The notes under the pieces: generated by a model
Database searches by the model: none
What the model saw: only the letters and a program-made list of their open reading frames with translations
Told to the model about the DNA's origin: nothing
Shown: positions 803 to 20,959 of the stretch, piece by piece
How positions within the stretch are numbered: position 1 is the stretch's first letter
Layout of the letters: each line of letters starts with the position of its first letter
Virus record (IMG/VR): IMGVR_UViG_3300044646_000364
Span: 1 to 25,476 of that record
Source: a virus
Reading direction: 5' to 3' (one strand)
DNA length: 25,476 bases
Position numbers and translations under genes: made by a program

Positions 803-3349
803 TTACCCAAACATGTCTTCTAGTGTTAATTGTTTATTGCCAACTTCCCAACCAATGTTGTCAGTAATAGATTTCATTGGTTCAATATATGACTTCTCAA
901 ATTGAGTATCATGGTCAATATAGTCATTGATACCAAACTGCTTTGGCAACGCTCCAGGGGATGATATCACATTTGTTGAAAATGGATTAGGTGTTCTTAG
1001 ATAACAAAACTTAATCTTATCCCCGTCTTGAATCTTGTTGTGCTTCTTATCTAGACCAAACTTATTTATGTAAGCATTGTAGACAAGAGCGCCTCTAACA
1101 TGAATTGGAATGGCTTTGCCTCCAATCTTGTGTTTGGTTACACCTTGGCAACTTCTAGGGAATGCAACATCTTCGAATGGTAATGTGTCAAATTCTTGTT
1201 TGAAATCCTCTACAAACCTAGCAAAATCATCCTTGGTGCCATTCATAATAATGTCAAGCGACTTCTTAATTGCTTCCTTAATCTTTGCTGGGGTAGAGGA
1301 CTTAACAGCCTCGATACCTTTCATCTTTAGCTTTGGATGCTCATACTGAACACCTTCTTCGTTAAAGACATTGAGAATGTATCTCTTCTTTGCAACCCAG
1401 ATACCCTTATCAGCAATTGACTCTCGCTTCATTTGCATACGCTGACTATGGATTAGCATATGGTTGGCAAGGTCATCATAACTCTTCTCAATGAATGGCT
1501 GGAAGACCTCATCACATGCCTTATCAAGCATACGAATAATCTTCTCGCGCTCAGGCAACTTACCACTATACACCTTCTCTACAAACTTATCTAGAGTGAT
1601 ATACAACGAGTCGGTATCTACAGCGATGACATAATCAACATTGTTAGTCTTGAGAGTCTTATTCAAGAACTCATTCATTCTATCTTGCATCCACCGAATC
1701 GATACCTGGCCAGATAATGTAATAGCCTCAGCCAGTTCAGTATCAAAGAATCTAAAGTAGATATTAGACAAAGCACCATAACAACTATTCAGCTGAATCT
1801 TCTTTGCCATCTGCATATTGTTATACTGGATGTACTTCTTCTCGTCCTCATGGTCTTTCGATACCTCAAACTTCTGCTTCGCTTCAAGCATCAGCTTCTT
1901 ATATCGCTTTCTATCGGCAAAGACCTTTTCCATTAGTGCTGGTAGGAATCCCAACTTATCCTTTCTATACATTGTACCATTAGCACAGAGTGTATAGTCA
2001 AGACTCTTGGCTTCGTCCTTATGCATTTGGAATACACCAGCATTGTCTAAACAATCTTCTGGTGTAAGGTCAACCTTTGACATCTTTGTATCAGGTGAGA
2101 TATTGTACTGCATGATCAAAGATGGGTATAGTGAAGTCAAGTCAAACGAGACAACATACTTATACATGCCAGGCTTGGGGTCCTTAACATAGGCACCCTT
2201 AATAGGTTGGTCCTTTTCTTCTCTAACCTTTTCTAGTTCTTCACCAGTCTTTGAAAGAGGAACAACGATATTACTATCAATCAGGTAGTTGTGGATGATC
2301 ATATCCCACATGCGTACAGTCTTTAGTGTATCAATGTAATCGACCTTCGCATCATATGCAATAGCAAGAACCTGATCGATAAGTTTCATCTTATCATCGA
2401 GCTTTGATACAAGAGTAACGTCGTGGATATTATACTCAATGAACTTTTGGAAGTCGTTCTTATAGAGACCAAACAAACTTTCGTATTCAGAGTAATCAAT
2501 CTTCTTCTCACCAAGCTCAAGGTGAGCAATATGGTTAAGAGAATAGCTTTCTGTATCGGAATAGGTAAACTTTCTATACAACTGAAGATAGTCAAGTACA
2601 GAAATGCCTCTTAGAGTCTTGGCCTTCATTACCTTGCCAGACCCTCTCATAATAATCTCTCTATCATCGATTACTTTCCAGGGAGAAAGTTTCTTTGACA
2701 TCTTACCTTCGTCATTGAATACTCTATCAATTCTATTGACGAGATAGGGAATATCGAACCCCTCTACGTTCCATCCTGTAACAATATCAGGGTCAACAAG
2801 AGGCGAGTCCCAAAGGGTTAGGAACTTCATAATCAAGTCGCGCTCGTTCTTACACTTAGCGTACATGATGTTGTCAGCAGAAGGAGTATAGTCACCACAA
2901 CCAAAGGTATAGTACCTATCCTTTACCTTGATAGTAATAGCAGTTAGTGCCTTATCAGCCTCATCGATGTTAGGGAATCCTTCATCAGCGGCGACCTCGA
3001 TATCGAGGTGGACGATGTTCATAATTGAAGCATCGTATTGAATCTCACCAGGATAGTATTCGTGGATGAATGGATAGATCAGGGAGTTCTTTGCTGTCAT
3101 TCCATATAGCTTGATTCCCTCGACTCCATCATACATCTTAATGTAATCCATCATATCATTGATGGATTCAAAGTCCTTCCGATCAGCTGGATAGCCATCA
3201 ATCGTCTTATAGGGAGCATTAGGATTGCTCGAGCGTTGGAAGCAGAAAGGTTGGTATGGGACGTCGGTATGGACCCTGCGGCCATCCTCATAGCCACGAA
3301 GAAGGATCTTATTCCCTCGGATGCTTACATTTGTATAGAACTTGCTCAT
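803..3349 (-). CDS. 43: DNA polymerase gp43, family B
   Basis: Replicative DNA polymerase with 3'-5' proofreading, 848 residues against about 898 in T4. The exonuclease carries Exo I (D116, E118 in HLDIEVA), Exo II (NVEGFDIPY, D199) and Exo III (YNIHD, Y306/D310). The polymerase carries motif A (SFDLTSLYPS, D403), motif B (K516 to YG at 524-525) and motif C (VDTDS, D578 and D580). All catalytic residues are present, so the enzyme should be active. The C-terminus QLTLEDMFG resembles a clamp-binding peptide and should tether the enzyme to gp45. It has its own sigma70-like promoter in the 64-base gap upstream and is followed directly by a small conserved gene. Confidence 0.98.
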   Translation of the reverse strand: MSKFYTNVSIRGNKILLRGYEDGRRVHTDVPYQPFCFQRSSNPNAPYKTIDGYPADRKDFESINDMMDYIKMYDGVEGIKLYGMTAKNSLIYPFIHEYYPGEIQYDASIMNIVHLDIEVAADEGFPNIDEADKALTAITIKVKDRYYTFGCGDYTPSADNIMYAKCKNERDLIMKFLTLWDSPLVDPDIVTGWNVEGFDIPYLVNRIDRVFNDEGKMSKKLSPWKVIDDREIIMRGSGKVMKAKTLRGISVLDYLQLYRKFTYSDTESYSLNHIAHLELGEKKIDYSEYESLFGLYKNDFQKFIEYNIHDVTLVSKLDDKMKLIDQVLAIAYDAKVDYIDTLKTVRMWDMIIHNYLIDSNIVVPLSKTGEELEKVREEKDQPIKGAYVKDPKPGMYKYVVSFDLTSLYPSLIMQYNISPDTKMSKVDLTPEDCLDNAGVFQMHKDEAKSLDYTLCANGTMYRKDKLGFLPALMEKVFADRKRYKKLMLEAKQKFEVSKDHEDEKKYIQYNNMQMAKKIQLNSCYGALSNIYFRFFDTELAEAITLSGQVSIRWMQDRMNEFLNKTLKTNNVDYVIAVDTDSLYITLDKFVEKVYSGKLPEREKIIRMLDKACDEVFQPFIEKSYDDLANHMLIHSQRMQMKRESIADKGIWVAKKRYILNVFNEEGVQYEHPKLKMKGIEAVKSSTPAKIKEAIKKSLDIIMNGTKDDFARFVEDFKQEFDTLPFEDVAFPRSCQGVTKHKIGGKAIPIHVRGALVYNAYINKFGLDKKHNKIQDGDKIKFCYLRTPNPFSTNVISSPGALPKQFGINDYIDHDTQFEKSYIEPMKSITDNIGWEVGNKQLTLEDMFG

Positions 3350-3388: not shown

Positions 3389-3417
3389 ATTATATAACAA
3401 AAAGGACCAGGTGTCAA
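3389..3417 (-). promoter_or_regulatory. Sigma70-type promoter for gp43
   Basis: On the minus strand, TTGACA (3417-3412) is followed by exactly 17 bases and then TATAAT (3394-3389). Both hexamers match the bacterial consensus fully. The -35 box overlaps the TGA stop of the upstream glycosyltransferase gene. The gp43 start is about 40 bases downstream of the -10 box. This would let polymerase be transcribed early by host RNA polymerase, independently of the accessory genes upstream. Confidence 0.8.
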
Positions 3418-4433
3418 CTATCAATATAACTAACGAATTGTCTAGCAGATGATTGCCATGAGATGTTCTGAACGGATTCGAAGGTTCGTTCTCTATCAAT
3501 GTTTAGCGAGTTTATTACTGCATCTTCCAAATCATCGCTAACGTATCCATTGACACCATTAATGATCTGGTCAATTGGACCAGTAACAGGGTAACCAGCA
3601 ACAGGGGTACCACAGGCCATACTTTCTAGGATAGTTATTCCAAACGTATCTACTTTACTTGGAAATACGCAAACATCAGCTGACTGGTAAAAGTAAGCAA
3701 GTTCTTTTCCAAACTTATACCCAACAAATCTTACGGATGGATACATCTTTTCTAGCTTTGATCTATATGGTCCGTCACCGACCACGATCTTTATTGCACC
3801 ACCGATCTCCACCCTGCAAAAATCATCTATATTCTTTTCCTTGCTGACTCTACCAACATAAAGTAAAACTATCTCAGAAGACTTTTTGTCTTTATATTTG
3901 AAGCAACTATCATACCCCTTACCAAGTACAACTGAATTCCATTGCTTATTTTCTTCAGCATTGGATGTTGAAGAACACATAACAACTTGTGAATTTTTAT
4001 GGAACCAATCAAAGTACCATTTAGTTGTCCATGTAGGCAGCCCAACTATCTGTTGAATAAACTCTGGAAACTTTGTGTGGTATGCTGATGTGTATTGATA
4101 CTTTAGTGATGTGAGAGCACGACGTGCTCTAAAACCAAGAGAACCTTCTGTTGCAATATGGAACTTGACATTATATCCTTTCATGTTCCAATCATACTTC
4201 CTCATCTTCAACATATTCCTCATTTTTGTATAAGAACATATTGCCCATGGTATAGATTTGTAAAATGGGATTGATACACATGTGAATAATCCTGGATGAA
4301 TAACATCAACAGAATACCCCTCCGGAAGGTTACTGATGATATTCTTATAGGTGGTCACTACACCACTTACCTGAGGTTCCCAGGCATCTGTTATTAAGAT
4401 GATTTTTGTTCTAGCCAATTTAGTATTTCCCAT
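3414..4433 (-). CDS. agt: GT4 glycosyltransferase, Agt-like (diacylglycerol glycosyltransferase candidate)
   Basis: A 339-residue GT-B fold glycosyltransferase of family GT4. The N-terminal domain opens with ITDAWEPQVSGVV, the usual acceptor-side glycine-rich start, and contains HIATEGSLGFRARR and AYHTKFPEFI. The C-terminal donor domain has LLYVGRVSKEKN, VGDGP and SKVDTFGITILESMACG (the E-x7-E site in its D-x7-E form), followed by PVAGYPVTGP. These patterns match the alpha-mannosyltransferase-like subgroup that includes bacterial Agt, which adds a sugar to diacylglycerol to make phosphorus-free glycolipids. The start overlaps the metallophosphoesterase gene by 40 bases, so the two are translationally coupled. 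This is the gene order known from marine plcP-agt operons. The family call is firm; the lipid role rests on the pairing. It could instead glycosylate another acceptor. Confidence 0.75.
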   Translation of the reverse strand: MGNTKLARTKIILITDAWEPQVSGVVTTYKNIISNLPEGYSVDVIHPGLFTCVSIPFYKSIPWAICSYTKMRNMLKMRKYDWNMKGYNVKFHIATEGSLGFRARRALTSLKYQYTSAYHTKFPEFIQQIVGLPTWTTKWYFDWFHKNSQVVMCSSTSNAEENKQWNSVVLGKGYDSCFKYKDKKSSEIVLLYVGRVSKEKNIDDFCRVEIGGAIKIVVGDGPYRSKLEKMYPSVRFVGYKFGKELAYFYQSADVCVFPSKVDTFGITILESMACGTPVAGYPVTGPIDQIINGVNGYVSDDLEDAVINSLNIDRERTFESVQNISWQSSARQFVSYIDS

Positions 4434-5146
4434 CTACCATCGTGGCGCTCGACAAGCGCTGTGCAACTTTCTACCCAGTCCCCATCGTTCATGTACTCTA
4501 TACCATTGACTTCTTTGATTACTGCTTTGTGGATATGGCCACATATCACACCATCAGCTTTTTGTTTATGGCAGTATTCAGTTATTAGTCGTTCAAAGTC
4601 CCCAAGATAAGAAACAGCTTCCTTTGTTTTATTCTTAAGGTAGGCACTTAAGCTCCAATGTGGTAGACCAAGCATATTCCTCACTTTACTAACTAACATG
4701 TTAACATCTAGTAGTACATTGTATAGAATATCACCAATGTGATATAGCCAACTTAACTTGGTTCTAAGAACACCATCAAACATGTCGCCATGGATCACCA
4801 TATAGACTTTACCATTGACACCTTGATGTCTACACTGGTTCACAAGATCAATGTTGCCAAAATGTATATCAAATGGCAATAGATCCCTCAGAGAATCATC
4901 ATGATTGCCGACAACATATATTACTTTAGTATCTCTCTTGGCTGCAGTTAGTATTCGTCTGATTACATTGGTGTGGGATTGAGGCCAGTAAAACTTTCTT
5001 CGTAGTCTCCAGCCATCAATGATATCGCCAACAAGATATAACTGCTCACTTGTATTGTGCTTAAGAAAGTCACACAAGAGATCAGCTTTGCAGCCCTTTG
5101 ACCCCAAATGGATATCTGATATAAAAATAGATTTATAGTGGGTCAT
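4394..5146 (-). CDS. plcP: Calcineurin-like metallophosphoesterase, PlcP/LpxH-like
   Basis: A 250-residue two-metal phosphoesterase of the UDP-2,3-diacylglucosamine hydrolase-like group (COG2908). Metal ligands are all present: D11-x-H13, GD at 40-41, GNHD at 80-83, H119 in VIHGD, and GHIH at 203-206. The segment WRLRRKFYWPQSH is typical of this group. In marine bacteria a member called PlcP hydrolyses membrane phospholipids to diacylglycerol and a phosphorylated headgroup under phosphate limitation, and it is encoded beside Agt. Here the next gene is exactly such a GT4 enzyme, overlapping by 40 bases. No signal peptide is visible, so it should act at the cytoplasmic face of the membrane. A true LpxH activity on lipid A precursors cannot be excluded from sequence alone. 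Confidence 0.75.
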   Translation of the reverse strand: MTHYKSIFISDIHLGSKGCKADLLCDFLKHNTSEQLYLVGDIIDGWRLRRKFYWPQSHTNVIRRILTAAKRDTKVIYVVGNHDDSLRDLLPFDIHFGNIDLVNQCRHQGVNGKVYMVIHGDMFDGVLRTKLSWLYHIGDILYNVLLDVNMLVSKVRNMLGLPHWSLSAYLKNKTKEAVSYLGDFERLITEYCHKQKADGVICGHIHKAVIKEVNGIEYMNDGDWVESCTALVERHDGRWEILNWLEQKSS

Positions 5147-5214
5147 AGTAGTCTCTGCTAGTATAGAAGTATTTAACCCAACTATCAGCAGTTTAATAAA
5201 AACTTAATATAAGA

Positions 5215-5234
5215 AGGGGGAGTTGCCTCCCCCT
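5215..5234 (-). terminator. GNRA-capped hairpin downstream of hsp20
   Basis: The minus-strand RNA folds as AGGGGGAG, loop GCAA, CUCCCCCU: eight perfect base pairs closed by a GNRA-type tetraloop. It starts 8 bases after the hsp20 stop. A broken U-rich stretch (UCUUAUAUUAAGUUUUU) follows. It probably ends or stabilises the hsp20 transcript. Confidence 0.7.
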
Positions 5235-5241
5235 CCTTTGG

Positions 5242-5801: not shown

Positions 5802-7256
5802 TTACAAAAATAGACTACGTCTTAAAATTTTGCCTGTAGAGTTTCTGGGAATACTATCGACATAGAATATTTTTTTTGGTATTTTGTATGGTGTAAGATT
5901 ATCCCTACAATATTGGATTGGATCTACTATTGGTGTGCCAACAATAAACGCAGCAACAATCTCTCCTCTGTTATCATCCGCTAGACCTATAACTGCTGAT
6001 TCCTCAACGCCGGGGCACTCATTAATAATATTTTCAATCTCTTCAGGATATATGTTTGTGCCACCAGATATGATAACATCATCAGCACGGCCAACAAAGT
6101 GTAGATAGTTCTCCTCATCCACATACCCAAGATCACCTGTAGCAATCATTTGTGTTTCTGCGTTGGCGTTGTTGGTGTCGGTGTACCCAGAAAACATTGT
6201 CATAGTTTTGGCATGTATCTCACCAACTTCAAGTGGCTTACATTCAATACCATTGTTAATAACTTTAATTGTTGACCCTATAACGGTTCTTCCAACTGTA
6301 GCTCGATGCATATACTTTTGGGATGGTCTGAGTAAAGTTATAGGACCGCATTCAGTAGAAGCATAAAGATCATAAACTATATCACCAAAGAAATTAATTG
6401 CCTTACCCTTAAGCAAAGGGGGGAACGTTGTGCTACCAACTACAATACTAGTCAGTGAACTTACATCGTATCTATGGGATGTAATATCACGAAGAATTAA
6501 TCTAAGTATAGATGGAACAACTAGCATGCATGTTACTTTTTCTTGCTCAATTGTCCTCATTATAGTCCTTGGGTTAATGCCTGTTGCTATTACAACTGTA
6601 CCCCCATTGTTTAGAGTTGCAATAGCAGTTCCATTGCCCCCAGCATTAGAAAATGATGCTATGGATAACATCACATCATACTCTTTCATACAATTCCAAT
6701 CAATCGGCATCAGATATGAGGTCATTGATCTTGACCTATGTGATATCAACATTCCCTTTGGCTTATTGGTAGTTCCAGAAGAATATACAATGTTAAATAT
6801 TGCAGAGTCTTTAAAGTCTGGATAATGCTCTATTGGTTTGTAATACTTCACCCACTCTTCGTACTTGCTGCCAAAGATTATTATTAGATCACAATGCTGT
6901 CCATATTCTTCTTTATAGAGGTCGTTGTCAATGAATAGAACGCGGGCCTTGCAATCCTTCAAACATTCAATGACTTCTCTTGCAACCCATTTAGGGTTAA
7001 TTGTTACAACAGGTACACCAACATCAGCAAGCCCCAATAATACCTCAAGATATTCAATACTATTATTTCCAACAATAGCAACATTACCCTGAAACCTGAT
7101 GTCCGTGAATGCAGCCTGGGACACACACCTCATGTTATCCGTTAGTTGTTTATAGGTAACAGAACGATCCCCATGTCGGACTGCCACTTTGTGGGGCGTC
7201 CGAGATGAGGATGAATGAATTCCGTTTGTTACTTTAAGTGGTATTAGACCATGCAT
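5802..7256 (-). CDS. AMP-binding acyl-CoA synthetase / ANL-superfamily ligase
   Basis: A complete 484-residue adenylate-forming enzyme that would activate a carboxylic acid with ATP and probably transfer it to CoA. The family core motifs are intact: YSSGTTNKPKG (158-168, P-loop), YASTECG (298-304), TGDLG (373-377), GRADD followed by SGGTNIYPEEIE (389-409), and the C-terminal catalytic lysine K476 in PRNSTGKILRR. The length is typical of a short-to-medium acyl-CoA or fatty-acid ligase. No carrier domain is fused, so it is not a peptide synthetase module. The substrate cannot be read from sequence. It lies upstream of hsp20 and the lipid cassette, transcribed in the same direction. Such ligases are unusual in tailed phages and this one looks acquired from a bacterial host. 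Confidence 0.93.
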   Translation of the reverse strand: MHGLIPLKVTNGIHSSSSRTPHKVAVRHGDRSVTYKQLTDNMRCVSQAAFTDIRFQGNVAIVGNNSIEYLEVLLGLADVGVPVVTINPKWVAREVIECLKDCKARVLFIDNDLYKEEYGQHCDLIIIFGSKYEEWVKYYKPIEHYPDFKDSAIFNIVYSSGTTNKPKGMLISHRSRSMTSYLMPIDWNCMKEYDVMLSIASFSNAGGNGTAIATLNNGGTVVIATGINPRTIMRTIEQEKVTCMLVVPSILRLILRDITSHRYDVSSLTSIVVGSTTFPPLLKGKAINFFGDIVYDLYASTECGPITLLRPSQKYMHRATVGRTVIGSTIKVINNGIECKPLEVGEIHAKTMTMFSGYTDTNNANAETQMIATGDLGYVDEENYLHFVGRADDVIISGGTNIYPEEIENIINECPGVEESAVIGLADDNRGEIVAAFIVGTPIVDPIQYCRDNLTPYKIPKKIFYVDSIPRNSTGKILRRSLFL

Positions 7257-7296
7257 TTAGCTACCTGTTATCAATTCTAGTTTGCCATAGCTGTAA

Positions 7297-7542
7297 TTAG
7301 CCAACTTTATTGCCCTCACCAGCCAGAATGTAACTATACACAGGCCAGGTTGCCATGTCCTTTCGCTTTGCACTTTGCACTTCGCGAATGAACGTATCCT
7401 TCTTGGCTCGCGAGCTCACACCCTTGTTAATCAACTCAATGCAGAATACTTTCAGCTCGTCAAGCGATACATCTGGACTAGCAACCATTTCGCCAAGAAG
7501 CTTTTTAAAGTCTTCGCCAATCTGTTCGTGCTTAACTTTCAT
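7297..7542 (-). CDS. Small hypothetical protein (81 aa)
   Basis: A predicted all-helical soluble protein with no recognised domain. Its start shares one base with the upstream stop (TAATG at 7540-7544), a translational coupling arrangement that supports both genes. It is charged, with a lysine/arginine stretch in the middle (SSRAKKDTFIREVQSAKRKD). It ends 40 bases before the acyl-ligase gene. Function unknown. Confidence 0.65.
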   Translation of the reverse strand: MKVKHEQIGEDFKKLLGEMVASPDVSLDELKVFCIELINKGVSSRAKKDTFIREVQSAKRKDMATWPVYSYILAGEGNKVG

Positions 7543-7754
7543 TACGCTACATCCTTTGATTCTTGAAAATACATCCGGTCGCCAACAGTGAGTAGAAGGT
7601 TACGTGCTCGCTCAATCCGCTCAACTAGATCATACACATCCTGCGATGATAGGTTCGTACCCTCATTCGCCATCACAGTGCTAACCATCGATACAATATC
7701 ATTCGCCTCGTTGAAAAACTGTTCAGTCTGTGTTGGATCAAACTTTCTATACAT
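7542..7754 (-). CDS. Small hypothetical protein (70 aa)
   Basis: I chose the ATG at 7754 (MYRKFDPTQTEQ) because a GAGG site lies 7 bases upstream; the longer frame from 7808 would start inside the preceding hairpin. The product is helical and acidic (FFNEANDIVSMVSTVMANEG, then a leucine/arginine-rich segment). No domain was recognised. The ribosome binding site directly follows the U-rich tail of the terminator-like hairpin at 7765-7831, so expression may depend on read-through. Confidence 0.65.
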   Translation of the reverse strand: MYRKFDPTQTEQFFNEANDIVSMVSTVMANEGTNLSSQDVYDLVERIERARNLLLTVGDRMYFQESKDVA

Positions 7755-7764
7755 AACTACCTCA

Positions 7765-7831
7765 AGAAAAGAGGAGGCCGACATTACGTGGGGAGTTACA
7801 CAAGGCAACTTCAGCCAGGTTGTCGGCCTCC
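7765..7831 (-). terminator. Terminator-like hairpin after the 159-aa basic protein gene
   Basis: An 11-base-pair perfect stem (7773-7783 with 7821-7831, GGAGGCCGACA and its complement) with a 37-base loop. On the minus strand it is followed by TCTTTTCTT. It begins 8 bases after the stop of the upstream gene. The loop is long for a simple terminator and contains a smaller GGC/GCC pairing, so it may instead be a processing or regulatory structure. Confidence 0.6.
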
Positions 7832-7838
7832 AATAACA

Positions 7839-8318
7839 TTAGGCCTTCTTGAACACTCGCGAGTAGTAGTAGTACGTGTTAGCGTACGTAATCTTGAGCT
7901 CATCCTGAACAGCCTTCAGCATCTTCTCTTGCGAGAGACCCTGAGCGGTCATGTCCTTGAACATCTCAAGAGCACGAGCACGCTTGGCGTTGTTAGCACC
8001 CTTCGCTCGCTTAGCCTTCGGAGCAGCCGAAACAGTCTTCGGAGCCTTAGCCTTAGCCTTTAGATTGAAGGATGGTGCCAAAACAGTCTTCGTCACAGCA
8101 GCCGGAGTCTTAGCAGACGCAGCCTGTTGACTATAGAGGTCCTGACCGTCAGCCGGACTATCCGACTGATACTTAGACATCTTAGCAAGAACAGCCGAGT
8201 TCGACAATCCACCAGCAATAAGAGTCTCAGCGGCAACGGTAGCACGCTCGACCTTATTAAGCGGAAGGTTCGTAACAGTCAGCTGACCGTCATTACCAGG
8301 AATAGAAATAGAAGCCAT
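7839..8318 (-). CDS. Lys/Ala-rich basic protein with C-terminal helical domain (159 aa)
   Basis: I chose the ATG at 8318 (MASISIPG) because GAGG lies upstream in a leader shared with other genes here. The N-terminal part (1-60) is neutral. Residues about 80-115 are histone-H1-like, rich in K and A with KAPK and PKAKRAKG. Residues about 116-157 form a helical unit (RALEMFKDMTAQGLSQEK...YYYYSR) of a type I have seen in phage proteins where it looks helix-turn-helix-like. A DNA- or RNA-binding role is plausible but not proved. It has its own sigma70-like promoter with a palindrome in the spacer, and it ends at a strong hairpin, so it forms a separately regulated unit. Confidence 0.75.
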   Translation of the reverse strand: MASISIPGNDGQLTVTNLPLNKVERATVAAETLIAGGLSNSAVLAKMSKYQSDSPADGQDLYSQQAASAKTPAAVTKTVLAPSFNLKAKAKAPKTVSAAPKAKRAKGANNAKRARALEMFKDMTAQGLSQEKMLKAVQDELKITYANTYYYYSRVFKKA

Positions 8319-8395
8319 AATATAAATCCTCAATTAATCATCACAAAGTCCGAACTCGCGTTCAGTATCGGCTGGACCACCCAACCAATGCGAGC

Positions 8396-8424
8396 AGTAT
8401 ACGCTACCGGTAGCTGAAGGTCAA
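8396..8424 (-). promoter_or_regulatory. Sigma70-type promoter with 12-bp palindrome in the spacer
   Basis: On the minus strand, TTGACC (8424-8419), a 17-base spacer, then TATACT (8401-8396). The spacer contains the perfect palindrome GCTACCGGTAGC (8403-8414). It would drive the 159-aa gene with a leader of about 70 bases. The palindrome is well placed for a repressor or activator dimer, or it could be a methylation/restriction site. Confidence 0.6.
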
Positions 8425-8617
8425 CTGCCAATACCCTTTAGAATCAATAAGTTACATATAGTTTAAAATTCCTAATAAAAACGCGGAGTTACAACTCCTG
8501 TAGAATCAAGGAGTTACAACATCCGCGTGGTTTTGCCGTAATAAGAACGATGTCATATTACGAATATACCCTGTTCTCACAAGGTATCAGCATACAACTA
8601 AACGAATCGTTCAGTTG
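8425..8617 (-). other. Non-coding, structured intergenic stretch
   Basis: No gene is supported in this stretch. It holds the terminator hairpin at 8471-8528, an inverted repeat CGTAATA/TATTACG (8537-8543 with 8556-8562), a short ATACC/GGTAT pair (8566-8570 with 8583-8587), and an 11-pair hairpin with one mismatch just after the upstream stop (8594-8618). A near-direct repeat is also present: TAGAATCAA-NN-AGTTACA at 8440-8457 and 8501-8518. Confidence 0.6.
8471..8528 (-). terminator. Two-tier hairpin with U-tract, terminator of the 70-aa membrane protein unit
   Basis: Outer stem ACGCGGA/TCCGCGT (8481-8487 with 8522-8528) encloses an inner stem AACTCCT/AGGAGTT (8493-8499 with 8509-8515). Reading the minus strand, TTTTATTAGG follows the outer stem, as in an intrinsic terminator. 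Confidence 0.7.
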
Positions 8618-8830
8618 TTAGGCTTTTGGTGCTTTTGGCTTACGAGCCTTCTTGACCTTCTCAACTGCCTTACCGGCTTCGGTCTTTGCTTCTACAGCAA
8701 CTTCCTTGGCGGCGGTAACAACATCTTGAACGTCAACCTTACCATCTTGGTTTAGGTCTGGAGTCTTAACAAGCTTCCAAACGATGTAGCCAGCAACAGC
8801 AAGTAGTAACAATACAACTAACGTACCCAT
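8618..8830 (-). CDS. Small membrane-anchored protein with EF-hand/dockerin-like loop
   Basis: About 70 residues. The ATG at 8830 is preferred over the one at 8836 because AAGGAG sits 7 bases before it but only one base before the other. A single hydrophobic segment (about residues 3-18, LVVLLLLAVAGYIVW) is followed by DLNQDGKVDVQDVV, which matches the calcium-binding loop D-x-N-x-D-G-x-x-D-x-x-D of dockerin/EF-hand proteins. The tail is Lys/Ala-rich and ends KKARKPKAPKA. The protein probably sits in the host inner membrane with a basic, possibly DNA-binding, tail. The Ca2+ loop is a motif call only. Function unknown. Confidence 0.75.
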   Translation of the reverse strand: MGTLVVLLLLAVAGYIVWKLVKTPDLNQDGKVDVQDVVTAAKEVAVEAKTEAGKAVEKVKKARKPKAPKA

Positions 8831-8841
8831 TGTCATTCTCC

Positions 8842-9105
8842 TTATTTAAATCCAAACATCTCTCTGACAGCCTGCCAGAAGGTTATTGGTTCATTATTAT
8901 CACTCTTCTTTCCATCAATGTCAACACTATCTGGAATCCATGGCTTGTCCATGTCTTCCCAACCCCTAGGGTCAGCCGAAGCGGCAGCAAGTGGAGCAGA
9001 AGCCTGTACAAGCTCAGCCTGTACCTTCTTAGCTCTCTTCTTCTTTACAAGGTTTTTTGCCTTCTTTCTTTTATTCGCCTTGATCGCTTTGACCACTTTC
9101 GTCAC
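8842..9105 (-). CDS. Small basic hypothetical protein (87 aa)
   Basis: The frame begins with a GTG at 9105, overlapping the regA 3' end by 35 bases, with AAAAAGG directly upstream; the exact start is uncertain. The N-terminal 30 residues are extremely basic (KANKRKKAKNLVKKKRAKK), followed by an Ala/Ser linker and an acidic-to-aromatic C-terminus (PWIPDSVDIDGKK, FWQAVREMFGFK). It ends within the ribosome binding site of the next gene. No domain recognised. It may bind nucleic acid through its N-terminus. Confidence 0.6.
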   Translation of the reverse strand: MTKVVKAIKANKRKKAKNLVKKKRAKKVQAELVQASAPLAAASADPRGWEDMDKPWIPDSVDIDGKKSDNNEPITFWQAVREMFGFK

Positions 9106-9502
9106 CCTTTTTACTTCTTCCGATATTGTATTTTGTCACCAGCTGCCATTCACTCTTCTGCTTGAAAGGAATGACTTTAATAAGTCTCATTGGTGCAACT
9201 GGTTCCTTTGTCTTTTCAGCGTCTACTAATCCAACCAAGCCCCAGTCGGAAAGTAGGTTAACAATAGTGTTTCTTCTGGCAATATCATCTTCTACCAATG
9301 AAGATGGTCTACCGTCAAGGGCAAAAAGCTCCTTGAAGTGTACAATATAGTATTTGCCTTTCTTATGGAGAATGTGACAAGACTGATAGAGGGTCTTGTT
9401 CTTTTCTGATGCAATACCAATTCTCGTTAAGGTCTCTTTGACCTTTAGGAAGTCATCATTTTGCTTTAGAGTGACTTCAATAAAACTATCTACTGTAATC
9501 AT
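9071..9502 (-). CDS. regA: RegA translational repressor
   Basis: RegA binds AU-rich start regions of early phage mRNAs, in T4 including those of gene 44, gene 45 and regA itself, and blocks translation. The 143-residue product carries the conserved RegA core: DFLKVKETLTRIGIAS, TLYQSCHILHKKGKYYIVHFKE and LFALDGR, then DDIARRN. T4 RegA is 122 residues, so this one has a longer, polar C-terminal tail (GRSKKGDESGQSDQGE). It overlaps the gp62 stop by 4 bases (ATGA). Recurrent GAGG/AU-rich leaders in this window are candidate targets. Confidence 0.95.
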   Translation of the reverse strand: MITVDSFIEVTLKQNDDFLKVKETLTRIGIASEKNKTLYQSCHILHKKGKYYIVHFKELFALDGRPSSLVEDDIARRNTIVNLLSDWGLVGLVDAEKTKEPVAPMRLIKVIPFKQKSEWQLVTKYNIGRSKKGDESGQSDQGE

Positions 9503-14062: not shown

Positions 14063-14343
14063 ACCTTATCTTCCTGTGGTTGTGTGAAGTGATATAGAAG
14101 GACGATATAATGGATAGCCTTGAGCAAATCCTTCTTATTGTGTCCTTCCTTCTTACCATATCTCATTAAGTACTTGATAGCAGTATCTCTAGAAGTAGTA
14201 TCAACACTACCAAGGGAATCCCAAACATCAATAGTCTGGATCTCTTCCTTACCAACATAATGCTGTTGATAGGTCTTACTAATATACTCTAGTACTTCCT
14301 TGAGGATCTTATCCTCTCTAAATCTATAATCAATATTCGACAT
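14059..14343 (-). CDS. DUF3310-like (SaV-type) small protein
   Basis: A 94-residue protein with the DUF3310 pattern: QQHYVGKEEIQTIDVWDSL, then AIKYLMRYGKKEGHNKKDLLKAIHYI. This family is common in phages and is often called a nucleotide kinase-like protein, though that function is not established. The GAGG-TATTTAAATT leader resembles other leaders here. It ends with an ATGA overlap into the next gene, fitting the nucleotide-metabolism context. Confidence 0.75.
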   Translation of the reverse strand: MSNIDYRFREDKILKEVLEYISKTYQQHYVGKEEIQTIDVWDSLGSVDTTSRDTAIKYLMRYGKKEGHNKKDLLKAIHYIVLLYHFTQPQEDKV

Positions 14344-15196
14344 AATTTAAATACCTCTGAACGAGAGTGTCAATGTAGTCCATATTATACTTGGCTAGAT
14401 TGTAATTGTCAATAGAAATATCACTTAGCTTTAGATCAAAGTCCACTTCCTTCTCATACTTGCCATCGTAGATACCAGTTGGGCTATAATCAAACTTACC
14501 ACCACTCAATCCAAACCACACACCGGCAGAACTATCCCAAGTGTCAATGTACTGCTTGAATGGTGCCATCAACTTAATTTCATTAGGACCATCTACCATA
14601 CCAAGGAAATGAATCTTCTTACCATTATTTCTAATACGATCAAGGATACCTCTTTCCTTAAGCTCTTGCATAAACATATAGCGAGCAACAAAGCGCTGAA
14701 GCTTGTTACCCTTCTCCACATTATATGCATTAGGTACAGCAAGAATAGATACACCGATATAGTCTACATGCTTAGATGTAGATGCCCAATCAAATGCACT
14801 AATCAAATCTTCTTTGTCACCAACTTTAGATTGAGGACAGAAGAATGTACCATAGCCTTGTCCCTTAAACATAGGAGCAAGATCGATAGCAGCTTTAATG
14901 GTCATAGAAGAATGTTCAGCTGGATAGTCCGACATAACAACATAGTCTGCTCTAACACGGGCAGCTGCCTCTAACACTTGCATTGGTGTTAGCATTGGCT
15001 TGCCTTGCTTATACATTTCGAAGGCACTATTATCTAGAATGACAGTAGTATCTTCAAAGTCTCTATATTCACTATAGAATTCGGTATACTCTTCGCTAGT
15101 CTCAACTAAGTGAGCAAGAGTTAAGTGACATGGATAGTCTTTAACAAGATCCAAAAACTCAACAGGTGCAATATGGCAAAAGTGTGTCATAATCAT
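14330..15196 (-). CDS. dpdA: DpdA-like DNA guanine transglycosylase (TGT family)
   Basis: A 288-residue TIM-barrel protein of tRNA-guanine transglycosylase type. Candidate catalytic acids are D55 in ILDNSAFEM and D218/D221 in IDTWDSSAGVW, with DYVVMSDYP and IGVSILAVP in between, then IHFLGMVDGPNEI. Length and spacing fit phage DpdA better than tRNA TGTs, which are about 375 residues and carry a Zn site not seen here. DpdA swaps guanine in DNA for a 7-deazaguanine. FolE2, QueD-like and QueE-like genes lie in the same operon, which strongly supports the role. The ATG at 15196 has AGAGG 5-6 bases upstream and overlaps the previous stop by 4 bases. Confidence 0.82.
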   Translation of the reverse strand: MIMTHFCHIAPVEFLDLVKDYPCHLTLAHLVETSEEYTEFYSEYRDFEDTTVILDNSAFEMYKQGKPMLTPMQVLEAAARVRADYVVMSDYPAEHSSMTIKAAIDLAPMFKGQGYGTFFCPQSKVGDKEDLISAFDWASTSKHVDYIGVSILAVPNAYNVEKGNKLQRFVARYMFMQELKERGILDRIRNNGKKIHFLGMVDGPNEIKLMAPFKQYIDTWDSSAGVWFGLSGGKFDYSPTGIYDGKYEKEVDFDLKLSDISIDNYNLAKYNMDYIDTLVQRYLNYVEY

Positions 15197-15582: not shown

Positions 15583-15953
15583 ATAACTTCGATCCTATAC
15601 ACTTTGAGTAGATCGCCATACCGACCATAGCGAATTGAAGACAAATAAGGATTCTTATCTTTATTATGTTTTGGTTTCATTGCTTGAATTAAGTTCTGTT
15701 CAGTAAACTCAATATGAGGCTGCTGACATTCATATGGCTTAATTAACCAAACAAACTTCCACGATTCATGTTCTTCAAGTAAGGTTCTAAAGTGGGTCAT
15801 ATCATAACCCTTCTCTCTAGCCTTTCTATGGTTCTCTTCTAACTGTTTCAAACCAAGAGAGGTTGAACCAACGTACATTAGTTCACAGCTAGAATTGTAT
15901 ACACCGTATACGCCTCTAAACCTATACTCAAGTGGATCTTTTATACCAGACAC
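15579..15953 (-). CDS. GIY-YIG nuclease-domain protein
   Basis: A 124-residue single-domain GIY-YIG protein. GVY (14-16) and YVG (27-29) form the name motif, a H at 42 (ENHRKA) follows, and E85 in TEQNLIQAMKPKHN matches the catalytic Glu and its P-x-x-N context. The usual arginine between YVG and the His is not clearly present (GLKQLEENH). No DNA-binding extension is fused, unlike classic homing endonucleases. It overlaps folE2 by 13 bases and the next gene by 4, so it is embedded in the modification operon rather than inserted as a free-standing homing gene. Confidence 0.75.
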   Translation of the reverse strand: MSGIKDPLEYRFRGVYGVYNSSCELMYVGSTSLGLKQLEENHRKAREKGYDMTHFRTLLEEHESWKFVWLIKPYECQQPHIEFTEQNLIQAMKPKHNKDKNPYLSSIRYGRYGDLLKVYRIEVI

Positions 15954-16888
15954 CCTGGAACCTCATGTGGACTAAATTTAGATGTGACTGCAATAGCATT
16001 CCAAGGATGTAGACTCTCTTCATGCGATACAGCTAAAGAGAAATCTCTAATTCTACCCTTGTCAAACCATTCGTCCAATGCAGCATACATTATACGGCAA
16101 ACATCTTCAGAGAACAACAGGTTGGCTCCATTCAATTCAGCAAACGCTTGCTCATCTCGTCTCTTGACAACAATCTGTACCTCAGTTGGAATATGCTTTC
16201 TGCAAAGCTCAACGAGATCTTCAAACCAAATGATCTTCGATGGATCAAACTCAACCTTGACCTTTAGAATAGATCTCTGGCTATGAGCATTGGCAGCAGC
16301 ATTACGATGAGTGCGGGCATCATATGCTAGCTCAAAAGAGCAAGGACAGGTTGAGCTATAGACATAGTCAATAGTAATAAAGAACTTGTAGTTACCATTG
16401 TGGTACTGACCCTCTAGCTCTGTCTTATAGGCAATATGACCACGAAGTTTTTCTTCTGGATTATCGTCTCTACGAGAACGGAGAGCATCTTGAGTCCATG
16501 GATACTTAAAGCGAAGCTTACAGTATGCACTTTTTGAACCCTGCTTCTCAGCGAGCTCCTTTAGTGCTCCTTGGATGCCATCAATTGAAAGATGGTCTTT
16601 GATCTTATTATGCATAATGAGATAGAGTCTCGAAAGATTCAATCCCTTAGCATTAGGGTCATCCAAAGAGCAATAAAGGCTGGCTTCTGCCTGCAACTGT
16701 TGTGTATTACCATCACGGCGCTTGACCATAATAGGAAGGTCAACTGGAGCAATGCCAACCTTACGAAGAGGAACCCTCGCACCAGGTAAAACTGGATTTA
16801 CTTGAGGGTCAGGTAACTCCTCACAGTAGAAATTACTATCATAATTAAATACAAGATCTGGCATCTTGTTAGAGTAATCAATACCCAT
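15941..16888 (-). CDS. folE2: GTP cyclohydrolase type IB (FolE2)
   Basis: Converts GTP to dihydroneopterin triphosphate, the first step to 7-deazaguanines (and folate). The 315-residue protein has the FolE2 features KVGIAPVDLPI, KGLNLSRL (81-88), STCPCS (179-184) and HSQRS (202-206). FolE2 is not homologous in sequence to the common FolE and can use metals other than zinc, which suits low-zinc seawater. The start overlaps the queD-like gene by 11 bases. In this context it most likely feeds DNA modification rather than folate synthesis. Confidence 0.93.
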   Translation of the reverse strand: MGIDYSNKMPDLVFNYDSNFYCEELPDPQVNPVLPGARVPLRKVGIAPVDLPIMVKRRDGNTQQLQAEASLYCSLDDPNAKGLNLSRLYLIMHNKIKDHLSIDGIQGALKELAEKQGSKSAYCKLRFKYPWTQDALRSRRDDNPEEKLRGHIAYKTELEGQYHNGNYKFFITIDYVYSSTCPCSFELAYDARTHRNAAANAHSQRSILKVKVEFDPSKIIWFEDLVELCRKHIPTEVQIVVKRRDEQAFAELNGANLLFSEDVCRIMYAALDEWFDKGRIRDFSLAVSHEESLHPWNAIAVTSKFSPHEVPGCLV

Positions 16889-17360
16889 TATTACACCTCA
16901 CGGTTTCAATAGCACCATTTACATAAAAAGCAGAGTTAAACTCATGCTCGTATATTTCTACAGTGTCTATCCAAACACGATTGTTTGTCAACTCTTGAAT
17001 CTTGGGATTAATGTTATCAAACACAAACTTACATGATGCTTCAATACCAGGACCCCAGCCCTTTGTTACATCCATGACATTCATACTAATTGCATCCATT
17101 TCATGCAATTCTTTAAACAGTTTAAGATATGGGTCATCAGATGCAATTAGCATTCTATGGTCCCATTGGTCCTCTAACCACTTCTTTACCCATTTAAGAT
17201 CACCAAAGTCCATGCACCACATTCTTTCATCTAATGTTTTACATGCAAACGTAAACTTAACATAACGCCCATAACCATGGGCCCACTTACAATGACCCTT
17301 ATCTCTCCATTGACGATGGCCAGTGGAGATCGGACCTATTCTTTTAGTTGAATAATACAT
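16878..17360 (-). CDS. queD: QueD-like 6-carboxytetrahydropterin synthase
   Basis: Second step toward 7-deazaguanine: dihydroneopterin triphosphate to 6-carboxy-tetrahydropterin. I chose the ATG at 17360 (MYYSTKRIG), which shares a base with the upstream stop and is preceded by GGGAG. The 160-residue protein has ISTGH (H15), C24-x3-H28, DFGDLK (51-56), DHR (67-69), a GIEAS segment and VEIYEHEFNSAFY. The second His of the usual HGH zinc motif is Tyr30 (AHGYGRY). The catalytic Cys24 is kept. Similar HGYG forms exist in phage and bacterial relatives as I recall, so the enzyme is likely functional. Confidence 0.85.
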   Translation of the reverse strand: MYYSTKRIGPISTGHRQWRDKGHCKWAHGYGRYVKFTFACKTLDERMWCMDFGDLKWVKKWLEDQWDHRMLIASDDPYLKLFKELHEMDAISMNVMDVTKGWGPGIEASCKFVFDNINPKIQELTNNRVWIDTVEIYEHEFNSAFYVNGAIETVRCNNGY

Positions 17361-17827
17361 TATTTTGTCTCCCACCAGAATTCAAACCATTCTGGAACTT
17401 TCTTTCTTGAAATCTTGTTAGCATAAAACTTGGGTACTATACCCTGATCTTTGTTATAAATCAAGGAGGCAACGTAAATATTTTCAGAGTTGAGTTTTGA
17501 CGAAACTGAACTACTCCAATCTTCAAACATTGTCTTTAGTGCTTCTCCACTATCAATAATGTCATCAACAACAAGTACCTTCTTGCCATTGTTAATATCT
17601 TCTGGTACCCAACAGTTAGATTCTTTATTCTCATGGTCTCTTGTCGACCAGCTGATTGGAACTAATCGCAATCCAAGCTTATGGGATAGTACTACACCAG
17701 GAATCAAACCTCCTCGTGATAGTGCTACGATATAACTAAACTCAACTTTTGATCTCTTGATCTTTCTGACAAGGGTATCGATATCCTTATCAAAGTCTTT
17801 AATTTTATACTTAATTAACTTTGCCAT
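17360..17827 (-). CDS. Xanthine/guanine phosphoribosyltransferase-like protein
   Basis: Transfers a purine base to PRPP to form the nucleotide. The 155-residue protein has VALSRGGLIPGVVL, matching the E. coli Gpt segment, a DHEN patch, the PRPP-binding signature VLVVDDIIDSGEAL, and an aromatic C-terminus (EWFEFWWE) like the Gpt purine-binding end. The base specificity is inferred. Placement between the QueE/oxygenase and QueD genes suggests a role in guanine salvage: transglycosylation of DNA would release free guanine, and its GMP product could return to the GTP that FolE2 consumes. AGGAAAGG precedes the start; it overlaps its upstream neighbour by 13 bases. Confidence 0.8.
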   Translation of the reverse strand: MAKLIKYKIKDFDKDIDTLVRKIKRSKVEFSYIVALSRGGLIPGVVLSHKLGLRLVPISWSTRDHENKESNCWVPEDINNGKKVLVVDDIIDSGEALKTMFEDWSSSVSSKLNSENIYVASLIYNKDQGIVPKFYANKISRKKVPEWFEFWWETK

Positions 17828-18297
17828 ACACCTTTCCTAAACCATGTTACGAGAACTAATCTTTTACCTTTTGTGACTTCTACAACGCCATGATCAACTG
17901 CTGTATTATAATAAATTGTCCGGCCAATAGGTTGAGGTAATGATCTTTTATTATTGCCTCGGCCAACTATAATATCGCCACCCACCAAATCATCTGATTT
18001 GTCTATTAGGGTGATTGCAGTACCACCAACAGTATCAGGGTTATCCTGATGAGTCTTAGCATATGCCCCTGATTGATACTCTAAGAAGTAATTGGTTACT
18101 GAGCACTCGCTACCATGAAACTTAATTAACTTAGATTGAATACCATCCCACAAATCTGATCTTACCTTTCTAATGTTACATTTGTATACATTAAACAAAT
18201 TAACATCTTGAGTGTGGAATTGTTTTGGCGAATTGTTATAAAGTTGCCTTAGATACTCCAACTCTTTTTGATTAATAATATTACTTGCTTTAATCAT
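17815..18297 (-). CDS. 2-oxoglutarate/Fe(II) oxygenase (160 aa)
   Basis: A double-stranded beta-helix dioxygenase. H83-x-D85 (KTHQDN) and H136 (VDHGV) bind iron; R146 (KGKRLVL) would bind 2-oxoglutarate. The spacing fits prolyl-4-hydroxylase/PKHD-type enzymes. This copy is separated from the other three by queE, shares TAATG with the queE stop, and lies inside the deazaguanine gene set, so hydroxylation of a modified base, nucleotide or protein are all open. The substrate is not known. Confidence 0.85.
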   Translation of the reverse strand: MIKASNIINQKELEYLRQLYNNSPKQFHTQDVNLFNVYKCNIRKVRSDLWDGIQSKLIKFHGSECSVTNYFLEYQSGAYAKTHQDNPDTVGGTAITLIDKSDDLVGGDIIVGRGNNKRSLPQPIGRTIYYNTAVDHGVVEVTKGKRLVLVTWFRKGVWQS

Positions 18298-19217
18298 TAA
18301 ACACCAATAGTGTTACCCCACAAGTACACATGGACTCTTGCCGAGACATTAAAGCCTCTCTTAAATGCCTCTTCAGCAATAGCACCAGCACTCATGTAAC
18401 CTTCTAGCTCACCAGTCTGACCTTCTTCCGTAGCACCAACAGGCATAATCCAAACAGGGAATGTTACTCCTGCTTTTCTGAATTCATTAGTTACATGGTC
18501 AACTTCTTCCCATGTCTCTTTCTTACCGTTAACAACATACTTGATTTGCCCATGGCCTCTAGAAAGAGAATGGTACTCAGCTAAGACCTCAGGAACAATA
18601 GCATCCTTATTTGTTTCACCAGAAGTAGTCCAGAGCTTAGGAGAAGATGAAATAAAGATCTCTCTGCCCATCTCTCTCCAGTTAGTCATAAAGTTACTAA
18701 ACTCTGGCTTCAGTGCCTGTGTAGCATTAGTCTCAAATGTAATGAACTTAGGACTATTCTTGATCCTATCGAAGTAATCAAGAATACCAACTGTACAGTC
18801 TTGAGCATGCTTCATTAAAGGCTCACCACCAGTGAAGCACATATGGATAGGCTGGCCTGCTGGATGGTCAAACTTTGACTCTAGATTATGGGGAGATCTA
18901 ATGTGGCCAAGAATCTGGTTAGCAATATACTCTGGTGTACCCTTATGCATTAGGTGCTTGAACTTCTTAGCCCAAGAATAGGAAGAGTCACAACCATATT
19001 TCCATACAGGTAGGTCTTCGACTCGCTTAATAAAGTCGACGGGCATATCTTTGTAGGGAAGCTTATATGTCTTAGGATCGGTTGGGTCTTTCTGACCAAA
19101 GCCATCACACTGGAGGTTACAGAGAAAGTATCTCAACCAAGCAGTTGGTATACCAGTGTATCGACCTTCACCCTGAATAGAATAGAAGATCTCAGAATAG
19201 TTATATTCTTTTTGCAT
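18297..19217 (-). CDS. queE: QueE-like 7-carboxy-7-deazaguanine synthase (radical SAM)
   Basis: Ring-contraction step giving 7-carboxy-7-deazaguanine (CDG). The 306-residue protein begins with YSIQGEG (12-18), the QueE hallmark, and has TGGEP (129-133) for SAM. The cysteine motif is split: C33-x3-C37, then about 38 residues, then C76 in YGCDSSYSW, equivalent to the CNLxCxxCDT motif with an insertion between the second and third cysteines. It is longer than bacterial QueE (about 210-225) because of this insertion and others. It heads the deazaguanine block behind its own sigma70-like promoter; GAGG precedes the start. Confidence 0.88.
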   Translation of the reverse strand: MQKEYNYSEIFYSIQGEGRYTGIPTAWLRYFLCNLQCDGFGQKDPTDPKTYKLPYKDMPVDFIKRVEDLPVWKYGCDSSYSWAKKFKHLMHKGTPEYIANQILGHIRSPHNLESKFDHPAGQPIHMCFTGGEPLMKHAQDCTVGILDYFDRIKNSPKFITFETNATQALKPEFSNFMTNWREMGREIFISSSPKLWTTSGETNKDAIVPEVLAEYHSLSRGHGQIKYVVNGKKETWEEVDHVTNEFRKAGVTFPVWIMPVGATEEGQTGELEGYMSAGAIAEEAFKRGFNVSARVHVYLWGNTIGV

Positions 19218-19254
19218 TACAAAAGCCTCAAATTAAACATTATTTATGACGACC

Positions 19255-19283
19255 ACTATACAACAGCTCATCGTTATTTTCAA
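19255..19283 (-). promoter_or_regulatory. Sigma70-type promoter upstream of queE
   Basis: Minus strand: TTGAAA (19283-19278), 17-base spacer, TATAGT (19260-19255). Each hexamer has one mismatch to consensus. It lies in the 66-base gap between an oxygenase gene and queE, the only sizeable gap in the operon, and would drive the deazaguanine genes separately from gp46. A late-promoter-like CATAAATA lies just downstream (19249-19242). Confidence 0.55.
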
Positions 19284-19835
19284 CTATCTCCAATGTGGAC
19301 CCAAAGCCCACATCACTAAAGTTTTTCTCACACCCCGTTGAACCTTCTCAACACTGTGAAATGTTGTTGGCTTAAAGATAACCATATCGCCTTTCTCAAG
19401 GCAAACAGGTTCATCATTAATAATAAGTTCACCACCACTATACTCACTTCTATCCGACAACATCAAAACCAAACTAATTTTTCTTTGATGTGGGGTTTTG
19501 TTATTGAAGATTGTATCAACGTGTCTTGCATAATGGTCATCTTTAAAGTATGTGGTGTGCTGTATCTCTAGCACCCTATAAAGTTCAACATCAAACGCAT
19601 GTTGATAGAAGTCGATAAATGGGTAGATGTTATCTAGAATGTTAAGATAAAACTTTCTATGGTTGTTAAAAGTTATAAACCGAGTCTCACAAGACCTCAT
19701 ATTCTTATCATTGGATATGCCTGATGTCAGACTGTTAACAGTCTGACCTTGACGGATTGGTATACGTTCTGTTGGGGAACTCCAACTGTCAATTAGGTCT
19801 TTTGGAATAGCTGACTTAACAGTTATAATTGACAT
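19284..19835 (-). CDS. 2-oxoglutarate/Fe(II) oxygenase (183 aa)
   Basis: PKHD-type dioxygenase. H105-V-D107 (YARHVDT) and H160 (TTFHSV) bind iron, R170 (RGVRKTL) binds 2-oxoglutarate; SGGELII and GDMVIFKP are conserved barrel segments. It is the third of three adjacent oxygenases sharing the ending pattern GVR-x-L-V/F...GP-W, so these are probably old duplicates. One base separates it from the previous stop. Substrate unknown. Confidence 0.88.
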   Translation of the reverse strand: MSIITVKSAIPKDLIDSWSSPTERIPIRQGQTVNSLTSGISNDKNMRSCETRFITFNNHRKFYLNILDNIYPFIDFYQHAFDVELYRVLEIQHTTYFKDDHYARHVDTIFNNKTPHQRKISLVLMLSDRSEYSGGELIINDEPVCLEKGDMVIFKPTTFHSVEKVQRGVRKTLVMWALGPHWR

Positions 19836-19836
19836 G

Positions 19837-20409
19837 CTACTTCCAGGTTGGACCAGTAATAAAAATGAACAAAATGTTTCTTACACCAGATGTTATTTGC
19901 TCTACCTTGTGTTGAGTGTATGATGTAAATAGGGCAACAGTACCTTTACCCTCTACTTTAGCTGGAAGCGGGTAGCCAGGATGCTCAAAAACAAACTCGC
20001 CACCCTCATACTCTGTTGGATCAGATAACATTACGGTCAAAGAAAGCTTTCTATCGGTTTTCAGATTGTTGTACTTAGGGTTGTTTAGAGCCATTTTATA
20101 ACTCATGGTATCATCATGCCAACCCACACCGTGGCCTGGTAGGTATGTAATATGCTGGATTGCTCCATCAATCTGATAATCAACATCAATACCTAGTTTG
20201 TTAATATTACTTTTTGTGTAATCAATTAACGATTTAAAGACACCTTCGTATGGCTTCATGTTAGCCGATAAGAATCTAACATTACATCTTCTTACACCTG
20301 TCTTACCAAACGATGGATCTATAGGTACATTGTTGATCATCCAGGTGTTGACATTGTTACACCATGTTGATGGAAAGTAATTTGGTGTTACTACAATCTT
20401 TGGAATCAT
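19837..20409 (-). CDS. 2-oxoglutarate/Fe(II) oxygenase (190 aa)
   Basis: I chose the ATG at 20409 (MIPKIVVTPN), one base after the upstream stop and with AAGGTGG upstream, over the one at 20442. H98-D-D100 (VGWHDDT) and H167 (YTQHKV) are the iron ligands and R177 (SGVRNIL) the 2-oxoglutarate ligand. LSDPTEYEGGEFVF is typical of PKHD-type hydroxylases. It ends GPTWK, matching its neighbours. Substrate unknown. Confidence 0.88.
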   Translation of the reverse strand: MIPKIVVTPNYFPSTWCNNVNTWMINNVPIDPSFGKTGVRRCNVRFLSANMKPYEGVFKSLIDYTKSNINKLGIDVDYQIDGAIQHITYLPGHGVGWHDDTMSYKMALNNPKYNNLKTDRKLSLTVMLSDPTEYEGGEFVFEHPGYPLPAKVEGKGTVALFTSYTQHKVEQITSGVRNILFIFITGPTWK

Positions 20410-20410
20410 A

Positions 20411-20959
20411 TTAAACCCACCTTGGACCCTTAAACCAAGCAACTAATGTATTTCTTGTTCCACTTGTTACTGGCGTTACTTTATGTAACATAATTGATGG
20501 GAACGCTATTGCTTCACCAGCAGTTAGCTTAATAGTTTTATTTTTTCTGCCACCTGCAAGAACTAAATCCCCACCCTCATAATTATCCCTATCCGTCAAA
20601 CCAACAATTACTGTAAGCTTGTGGACGACAGGTTTAATTACCCACACTGAATCACTATGCCAGTCGTATTCCATTTGCTGTTCTGATTTATACGTTGTGT
20701 ATTGGAATGAGCTAATATCAAACCAAATATTGAAACCAAACATTCGTTCGTTTGCAGCCATTGCAATATCTTTTAATGCATCTACTATTTGGGGTTCCCT
20801 CTTAGAAGAAATAATTTTCATTAAATAGTTTTCCGGTATGACACCACTACCGTTTGCTGACAAGATATGTGAATCACCAGCTGCATCTGGATACTTCTCA
20901 CATGCTTTGTGGATACCCTCAGCCCACTTACTATTAAAGTATTGCTTTGTCCAGATCAT
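20411..20959 (-). CDS. 2-oxoglutarate/Fe(II) oxygenase (182 aa)
   Basis: Dioxygenase with H101-x-D103 (YDWHSDS), H159 (IMLHKV) and R169 (SGTRNTL). LTDRDNYEGGDLVL and GEAIAFPS are the conserved barrel strands. It overlaps the gp46 stop by 4 bases, so it is co-translated with the recombination genes. First of three tandem copies. Marine T4-like phages often carry such genes near gp46; their targets are unknown. Confidence 0.88.
   Translation of the reverse strand: MIWTKQYFNSKWAEGIHKACEKYPDAAGDSHILSANGSGVIPENYLMKIISSKREPQIVDALKDIAMAANERMFGFNIWFDISSFQYTTYKSEQQMEYDWHSDSVWVIKPVVHKLTVIVGLTDRDNYEGGDLVLAGGRKNKTIKLTAGEAIAFPSIMLHKVTPVTSGTRNTLVAWFKGPRWV

Follow-up and report, generated by a model that had tools for sequence, protein, structure and literature searches.

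A PlcP-Agt-like gene pair in a T4-type phage record and its predicted role in lipid remodelling

The locus described here raises the question of whether a phage could draw phosphorus from the membrane of its host while keeping that membrane intact. In many lakes and across much of the ocean, phage production is constrained by the phosphorus available. Membrane phospholipid is typically quoted as holding about 20% of cell phosphorus (PMC4796936), and by a rough estimate the phospholipid phosphorus of one small cell would correspond to about 6 to 20 genomes of 180 kb. The window, meaning the whole stretch of DNA that was analysed, is an IMG/VR virus record of 25,476 bases, and a preliminary description had read two of its genes as a PlcP-Agt-like lipid-remodelling cassette. 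The features of the window were as follows.

803–3349: T4-type DNA polymerase gene, 64 nt from the cassette
3414–4433, minus strand: agt-like gene for a GT4 glycosyltransferase, 339 aa (Pfam PF00534, Agt clade)
4394–5146, minus strand: plcP-like gene for a COG2908 metallophosphoesterase, 250 aa (Pfam PF00149, PlcP clade)
4394–4433, minus strand: 40-nt overlap of the plcP end and the agt start, from the ORF coordinates
5192–5209, reading on the plus strand, opposite to plcP: Pho-box-like direct repeat TTTAATA-AAAA-CTTAATA upstream of plcP, a putative host PhoB-type site
5213–5236, minus strand: hairpin GGGGGAG-GCAA-CTCCCCC with a T-rich tail, read from the sequence
5802–7256, minus strand: gene for a FadD/AMP-forming acyl ligase (PF00501, 190 bits)
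15941–19217, minus strand: genes for FolE2 (PF02649), a QueD-like protein (phrog_2389) and a QueE-like protein (phrog_2076)
17815–20959, minus strand: four short 2OG-Fe(II) oxygenase-like ORFs, the first of which matched phrog_61

The gene pair and its surroundings

The preliminary description of a COG2908 metallophosphoesterase with its metal ligands, overlapping a GT4 gene by 40 bases, was confirmed in both parts. The first product matched Metallophos (PF00149) at 41 bits (cut-off 21.5), and its expected dinuclear-site ligands D11, H13, D41, N81, H119, H204 and H206 were invariant in the phage and cellular relatives. The second product matched Glycos_transf_1 (PF00534) at 79 bits (cut-off 26.4) and contained the motifs HIATEG, HTKFPEF, GRVSKEKN and VDTFG, and the overlap of the two genes makes translational coupling likely. 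The pair is flanked by an sHSP gene on one side and the DNA polymerase gene on the other. T4-type replication genes (DNA polymerase, clamp, clamp loader and gp46/47) adjoin the cassette, indicating that the record is phage and not host DNA; the polymerase shares no more than 48% identity with those of known phages, the best matches being in cyanophages.

The acyl ligase gene lies two genes upstream of plcP, beyond the sHSP gene, and has relatives in the viral contigs L004 (96%), L091 (54%) and L006 (38%); its product may handle fatty acids within the same lipid module. Further along the window the FolE2, QueD-like and QueE-like genes make up most of a preQ0 pathway, which suggests that phage DNA or tRNA may carry a 7-deazaguanine modification; an unassigned ORF neighbours them at 14330–15196. 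The run of 2OG-Fe(II) oxygenase-like ORFs is an expansion interrupted by queE.

Family identity of the two enzymes

The phage homologues of the phosphoesterase in Mosig and S-SRM01 were deposited as LpxH, the enzyme of lipid A synthesis, and the AlphaFold model of the window protein (pLDDT 80) had LpxH as its closest solved structure at 16–18% identity, which is the expected nearest solved fold for a COG2908 protein. The profile scores were 35 bits for PRK05340 and 26 bits for TIGR01854, far below the LpxH cut-offs of 134 and 190 bits, respectively. When 14 whole genomes were searched with the phage protein the PlcP locus was matched in all 14, the sole other match being a fragment of 31 residues. 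Nine of these genomes also have a gene that strongly matches LpxH (181–285 bits, eight of the nine above cut-off), and in these nine the phage protein did not match the true LpxH, only the PlcP locus, at 49–56% identity. In the phylogeny ten LpxH sequences, including that of E. coli, were set off by a saturated branch (SH-aLRT 100) with the phage and cellular PlcP together on the opposite side, and a careful PlcP tree united the window with Mosig and 16 further phages in one clade (99/99). Placement within LpxH had been named in advance as an outcome that would overturn the PlcP reading, and the protein fell with PlcP. The LpxH identity was rejected on these scores, the separate branch and the unmatched LpxH of the nine genomes, and is very improbable. 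The predicted role of the phosphoesterase is that of a phospholipase C acting on membrane phospholipids.

The nearest cellular relatives of the phosphoesterase are PlcP-like proteins with 46–56% identity, from alpha-, beta- and gammaproteobacteria, Pelagibacteraceae among them. The preliminary description had cited the bacterial pair from marine heterotrophs; the pair is not confined to marine organisms, and these relatives are spread broadly through the Proteobacteria. The best tree favoured phages having acquired plcP twice, once in L131 and L137 and once in the rest, without forcing this topology (AU p 0.19).

For the glycosyltransferase, the best match was the plcP-adjacent GT4 gene in 9 of the 14 whole genomes, usually with a score far above all other GT4 genes of the genome. 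In the tree the phage and cellular Agt grouped apart from other GT4 proteins (SH-aLRT 95). The window protein thus lies in the plcP-linked clade, and here too the outcome named in advance as a refutation, a clade with soluble or LPS acceptors, did not come about. The tree and the plcP-adjacent genomic match led to rejection of an unrelated glycosyltransferase. Its structural model (pLDDT 91) adopted a GT-B fold with MshA as top match.

The numbering of a Pelagibacteraceae Agt equals that of the SAR11 enzyme GTcp at the compared motifs, and the window protein keeps the GTcp residues G82, G85, H104, R190, K195, D256, T257, F258, G259, E264 and W320. His104 and Asp256 are catalytic residues. Most GT4 enzymes carry Glu at the position of Asp256; Asp was found there in 90 of 93 phage sequences and Glu in 9 of 12 other GT4 sequences. 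The position of Arg163 is occupied by Lys in the window protein; of 93 phage sequences, 55 have Lys there and the other 38 Arg. Assays of GTcp, a SAR11 Agt, found the alanine mutants of His104, Arg163, Asp256 and Trp320 to be inactive and the D256E mutant to have lost more than 90% of its activity (PMC8231724). Arg163 belongs to the proposed diacylglycerol pocket of GTcp, where the substitution assayed was R163A and not R163K (PMC8231724). The predicted role of the window protein is that of a diacylglycerol glycosyltransferase, and from the sequence comparisons the identity of both enzymes as PlcP and Agt is well supported and highly probable.

Conservation of the pair, phosphate genes and promoter sites

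Of the 80 nearest cellular plcP loci, 66 showed the same gene order, with an agt homologue no more than 0.8 kb downstream of plcP. Among 96 distinct phage plcP sequences the next gene was agt in 62, mostly overlapping, and otherwise pstS (9), another glycosyltransferase (7), thyX (3), a TonB receptor (1) or some other gene (10); thus 30 of the 96 had a next gene other than agt, and the remaining 4 were cut by a contig end. A further 34 distinct phage plcP sequences were followed by agt in 15 cases and by another glycosyltransferase in 6. A search of viral contigs for the pair, as proposed earlier, found it in more than 70 related ones, and tblastn overlaps of −24 to −36 are common to most phage pairs. 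This recurrence in dozens of distinct viral contigs indicates that the pair is not a chance arrangement. Between the window and its relative L004 dN was about 0.10–0.12 with saturated dS for both genes, which indicates purifying selection on both.

These data bear on the reading that the two genes are mere neighbours, in which the phosphoesterase would act on a soluble phosphodiester and the glycosyltransferase would modify phage DNA, lipopolysaccharide or some other glycan. The weak PHROG matches, to generic glycosyltransferases and metallophosphoesterases, and the replacement of Arg163 would fit such a reading, but the overlapping pair is kept in many contigs and is syntenic with cellular plcP-agt, and the top genomic match of the glycosyltransferase is plcP-adjacent and scores far above other GT4 genes. 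This makes two unconnected activities improbable, and the clade placements with the recurrent linkage support a PlcP-Agt-like lipid-remodelling cassette in a phage.

Beyond the preliminary description, plcP was found linked to pstS and porin genes and to Pho-box-like promoters, and the pair was found in many viral contigs. A close relative of the window phage carries pstS and a porin gene just upstream of plcP, and in the pelagiphage isolate Mosig, whose host is Pelagibacter HTCC1062 (PMC7892664), plcP is divergent from the phosphate-binding-protein gene pstS. The pstS-type and porin domains in related phages were checked against Pfam. Putative porin genes (Porin_5) by plcP or pstS were located as follows.

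L006, 4627–5823: putative porin gene
L034, 3617–4573: putative porin gene
L041, 7840–9054: putative porin gene

One of the three has weak similarity to phosphate-selective porin O/P, and they are possibly phage-encoded phosphate porins. In another viral contig, L052, a TonB-dependent receptor gene (6803–9304) lies directly downstream of plcP.

The classical CTGTCAT Pho box was not enriched in the phages overall and had no good site in the window; the same scan found it in cellular plcP promoters. The pattern TTAA-N7-TTAA, a repeat with an 11-bp period, occurred once in the window, before plcP, and SAR11 cells have a related box with the consensus TGTAACA-N4-TGTAACA before plcP and pstS. Scored with a matrix trained solely on the cellular SAR11 sites, the site at 5192–5209 gave 11.9 bits, a value reached by 0 of 760 control ORF upstreams, and it was the only intergenic site of at least 8 bits in the window. 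Of 52 non-redundant upstream regions of phage plcP, 22 scored at least 8; among 246 intergenic control regions taken from these contigs and matched in base composition, 9 did so (Fisher 1.8e-12). This score was reached in 15 of the 20 phages in which the plcP upstream is intergenic, and in only 1 of 61 non-SAR11 cellular plcP promoters. Further contigs were fetched as a held-out set because the form of the motif had been chosen after looking at the first phages; 9 of the 33 held-out phage plcP upstreams scored at least 10, one of them a perfect consensus (Fisher 2.7e-7), with the counted sequences being related to one another, so that both p-values overstate independence.

In G015, a near relative of 188 kb, TTAA-N7-TTAA occurs at just two intergenic positions, one before pstS and the other before plcP, a restriction that makes it unlikely that the repeat stems from a generic terminator or promoter. 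In the relative G016 one of three intergenic sites of at least 9.5 bits precedes plcP. The hairpin at 5213–5236 is likely the terminator of the upstream sHSP gene, in which case plcP-agt would have its own promoter. The window site is comparatively weak and rich in AT, points in the direction opposite to plcP and directly follows this terminator-like hairpin; its reversed orientation and position leave the regulatory claim for this particular phage at moderate strength. Pho-box predictions in phage genomes are unreliable and may be mistaken (PMC10976474).

Hints to the host were conflicting. No psbA was found in ten long records, and betaproteobacterial pstS loci appear to carry the CTGTCAT box. 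G015 (contig L376, 5321–5701) encodes a permuted tmRNA of betaproteobacterial type with the tag ANDDVYNMALAA, which is a hint to a betaproteobacterial host; against 369 genomes it gave short, weak matches only.

Proposed mechanism and comparison with known systems

Starting from the computed features, namely both family identities, the catalytic residues, the linkage of the pair, the linkage to pstS and porins, and the starvation-type promoter sites across the phage set, we infer enzymatic activity, substrates, expression timing and a benefit to the phage, which together would form a phage-borne lipid-remodelling operon linked to phosphate starvation. When the infected cell is starved of phosphate, a host PhoB-type regulator or a phage promoter would turn on plcP-agt. 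PlcP would then remove the phosphate headgroup of host phospholipids, giving diacylglycerol and a phospho-alcohol whose phosphate could be recycled into nucleotides, and the coupled Agt would transfer sugar from a UDP-sugar onto the diacylglycerol. The resulting phosphorus-free glycolipid would fill the place of the lost phospholipid, preventing a build-up of diacylglycerol and keeping the membrane intact, and phosphorus would be spared for phage DNA. Lipid remodelling of this kind has experimental precedent in bacteria (PMC4796936, PMC8231724, PMC9239053). Counted against the mechanism are the change of Arg163 to Lys, the 30 of 96 phage plcP genes without agt, the reversed AT-rich site of the window and the sites in G016. 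The full mechanism is given a probability of roughly 0.75.

The same two enzymes would suffice if lipid remodelling served another purpose, such as a change of membrane charge or surface against superinfection, tuning of lysis or antimicrobial resistance. Other phage glycosyltransferases have been interpreted as surface modifiers (PMC7029224), and T4 infection is reported, in work cited in PMC12282109, to change host phospholipids. The repeated occurrence of plcP beside pstS and porin genes, together with the Pho-box-like promoters, argues against a purpose other than phosphate, which is unlikely, though less so than the pair being mere neighbours.

The presence of the pair in many viral contigs, often behind a starvation-type site, suggests that membrane phosphorus is probably a nutrient mined by these viruses. 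It is somewhat favoured, at little better than even odds, that a small phage-borne Pho regulon tied to host PhoB is common among aquatic T4-type phages. It would consist of pstS, a porin, and plcP with agt or another glycosyltransferase, and would mine phospholipid phosphorus for progeny DNA while glycolipid replaces the phospholipid. If viruses tap this phosphorus, infection would be linked to lipid composition, to glycolipid signals in phosphorus-poor water and to particle chemistry. A search of the open-access literature found no description of phage plcP-agt.

PlcP-Agt lipid remodelling is known from SAR11, roseobacters, Erythrobacter, Methylosinus and Pseudomonas (PMC4796936, PMC9239053, PMC8528852). 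The phage pair resembles these bacterial systems in its enzyme clades, the order of plcP then agt, the Pho-box-type promoters predicted across the phage set and the catalytic residues. It differs in being carried by T4-type phages, in forming a distinct phage clade with 46–56% identity to the nearest cellular PlcP, in having overlapping genes where the bacterial ones are spaced, and in the frequent Lys at the position of Arg163. The phosphate-acquisition genes known from phages are pstS, phoA and phoH, and those of cyanophages are under host PhoB (PMC10976474). The plcP-agt pair shares with these genes the presumed goal and the predicted type of regulation, and pstS stands beside plcP in several phages; unlike them it would obtain phosphorus from the host's own membrane phospholipid and not by import, with a second enzyme refilling the membrane. 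In work cited in PMC12282109, Roitman et al. in 2018 are said to have described cyanophage lipid desaturases, which are likewise phage genes altering the membrane lipids of the host, but act on the acyl chains and not on headgroup phosphorus.
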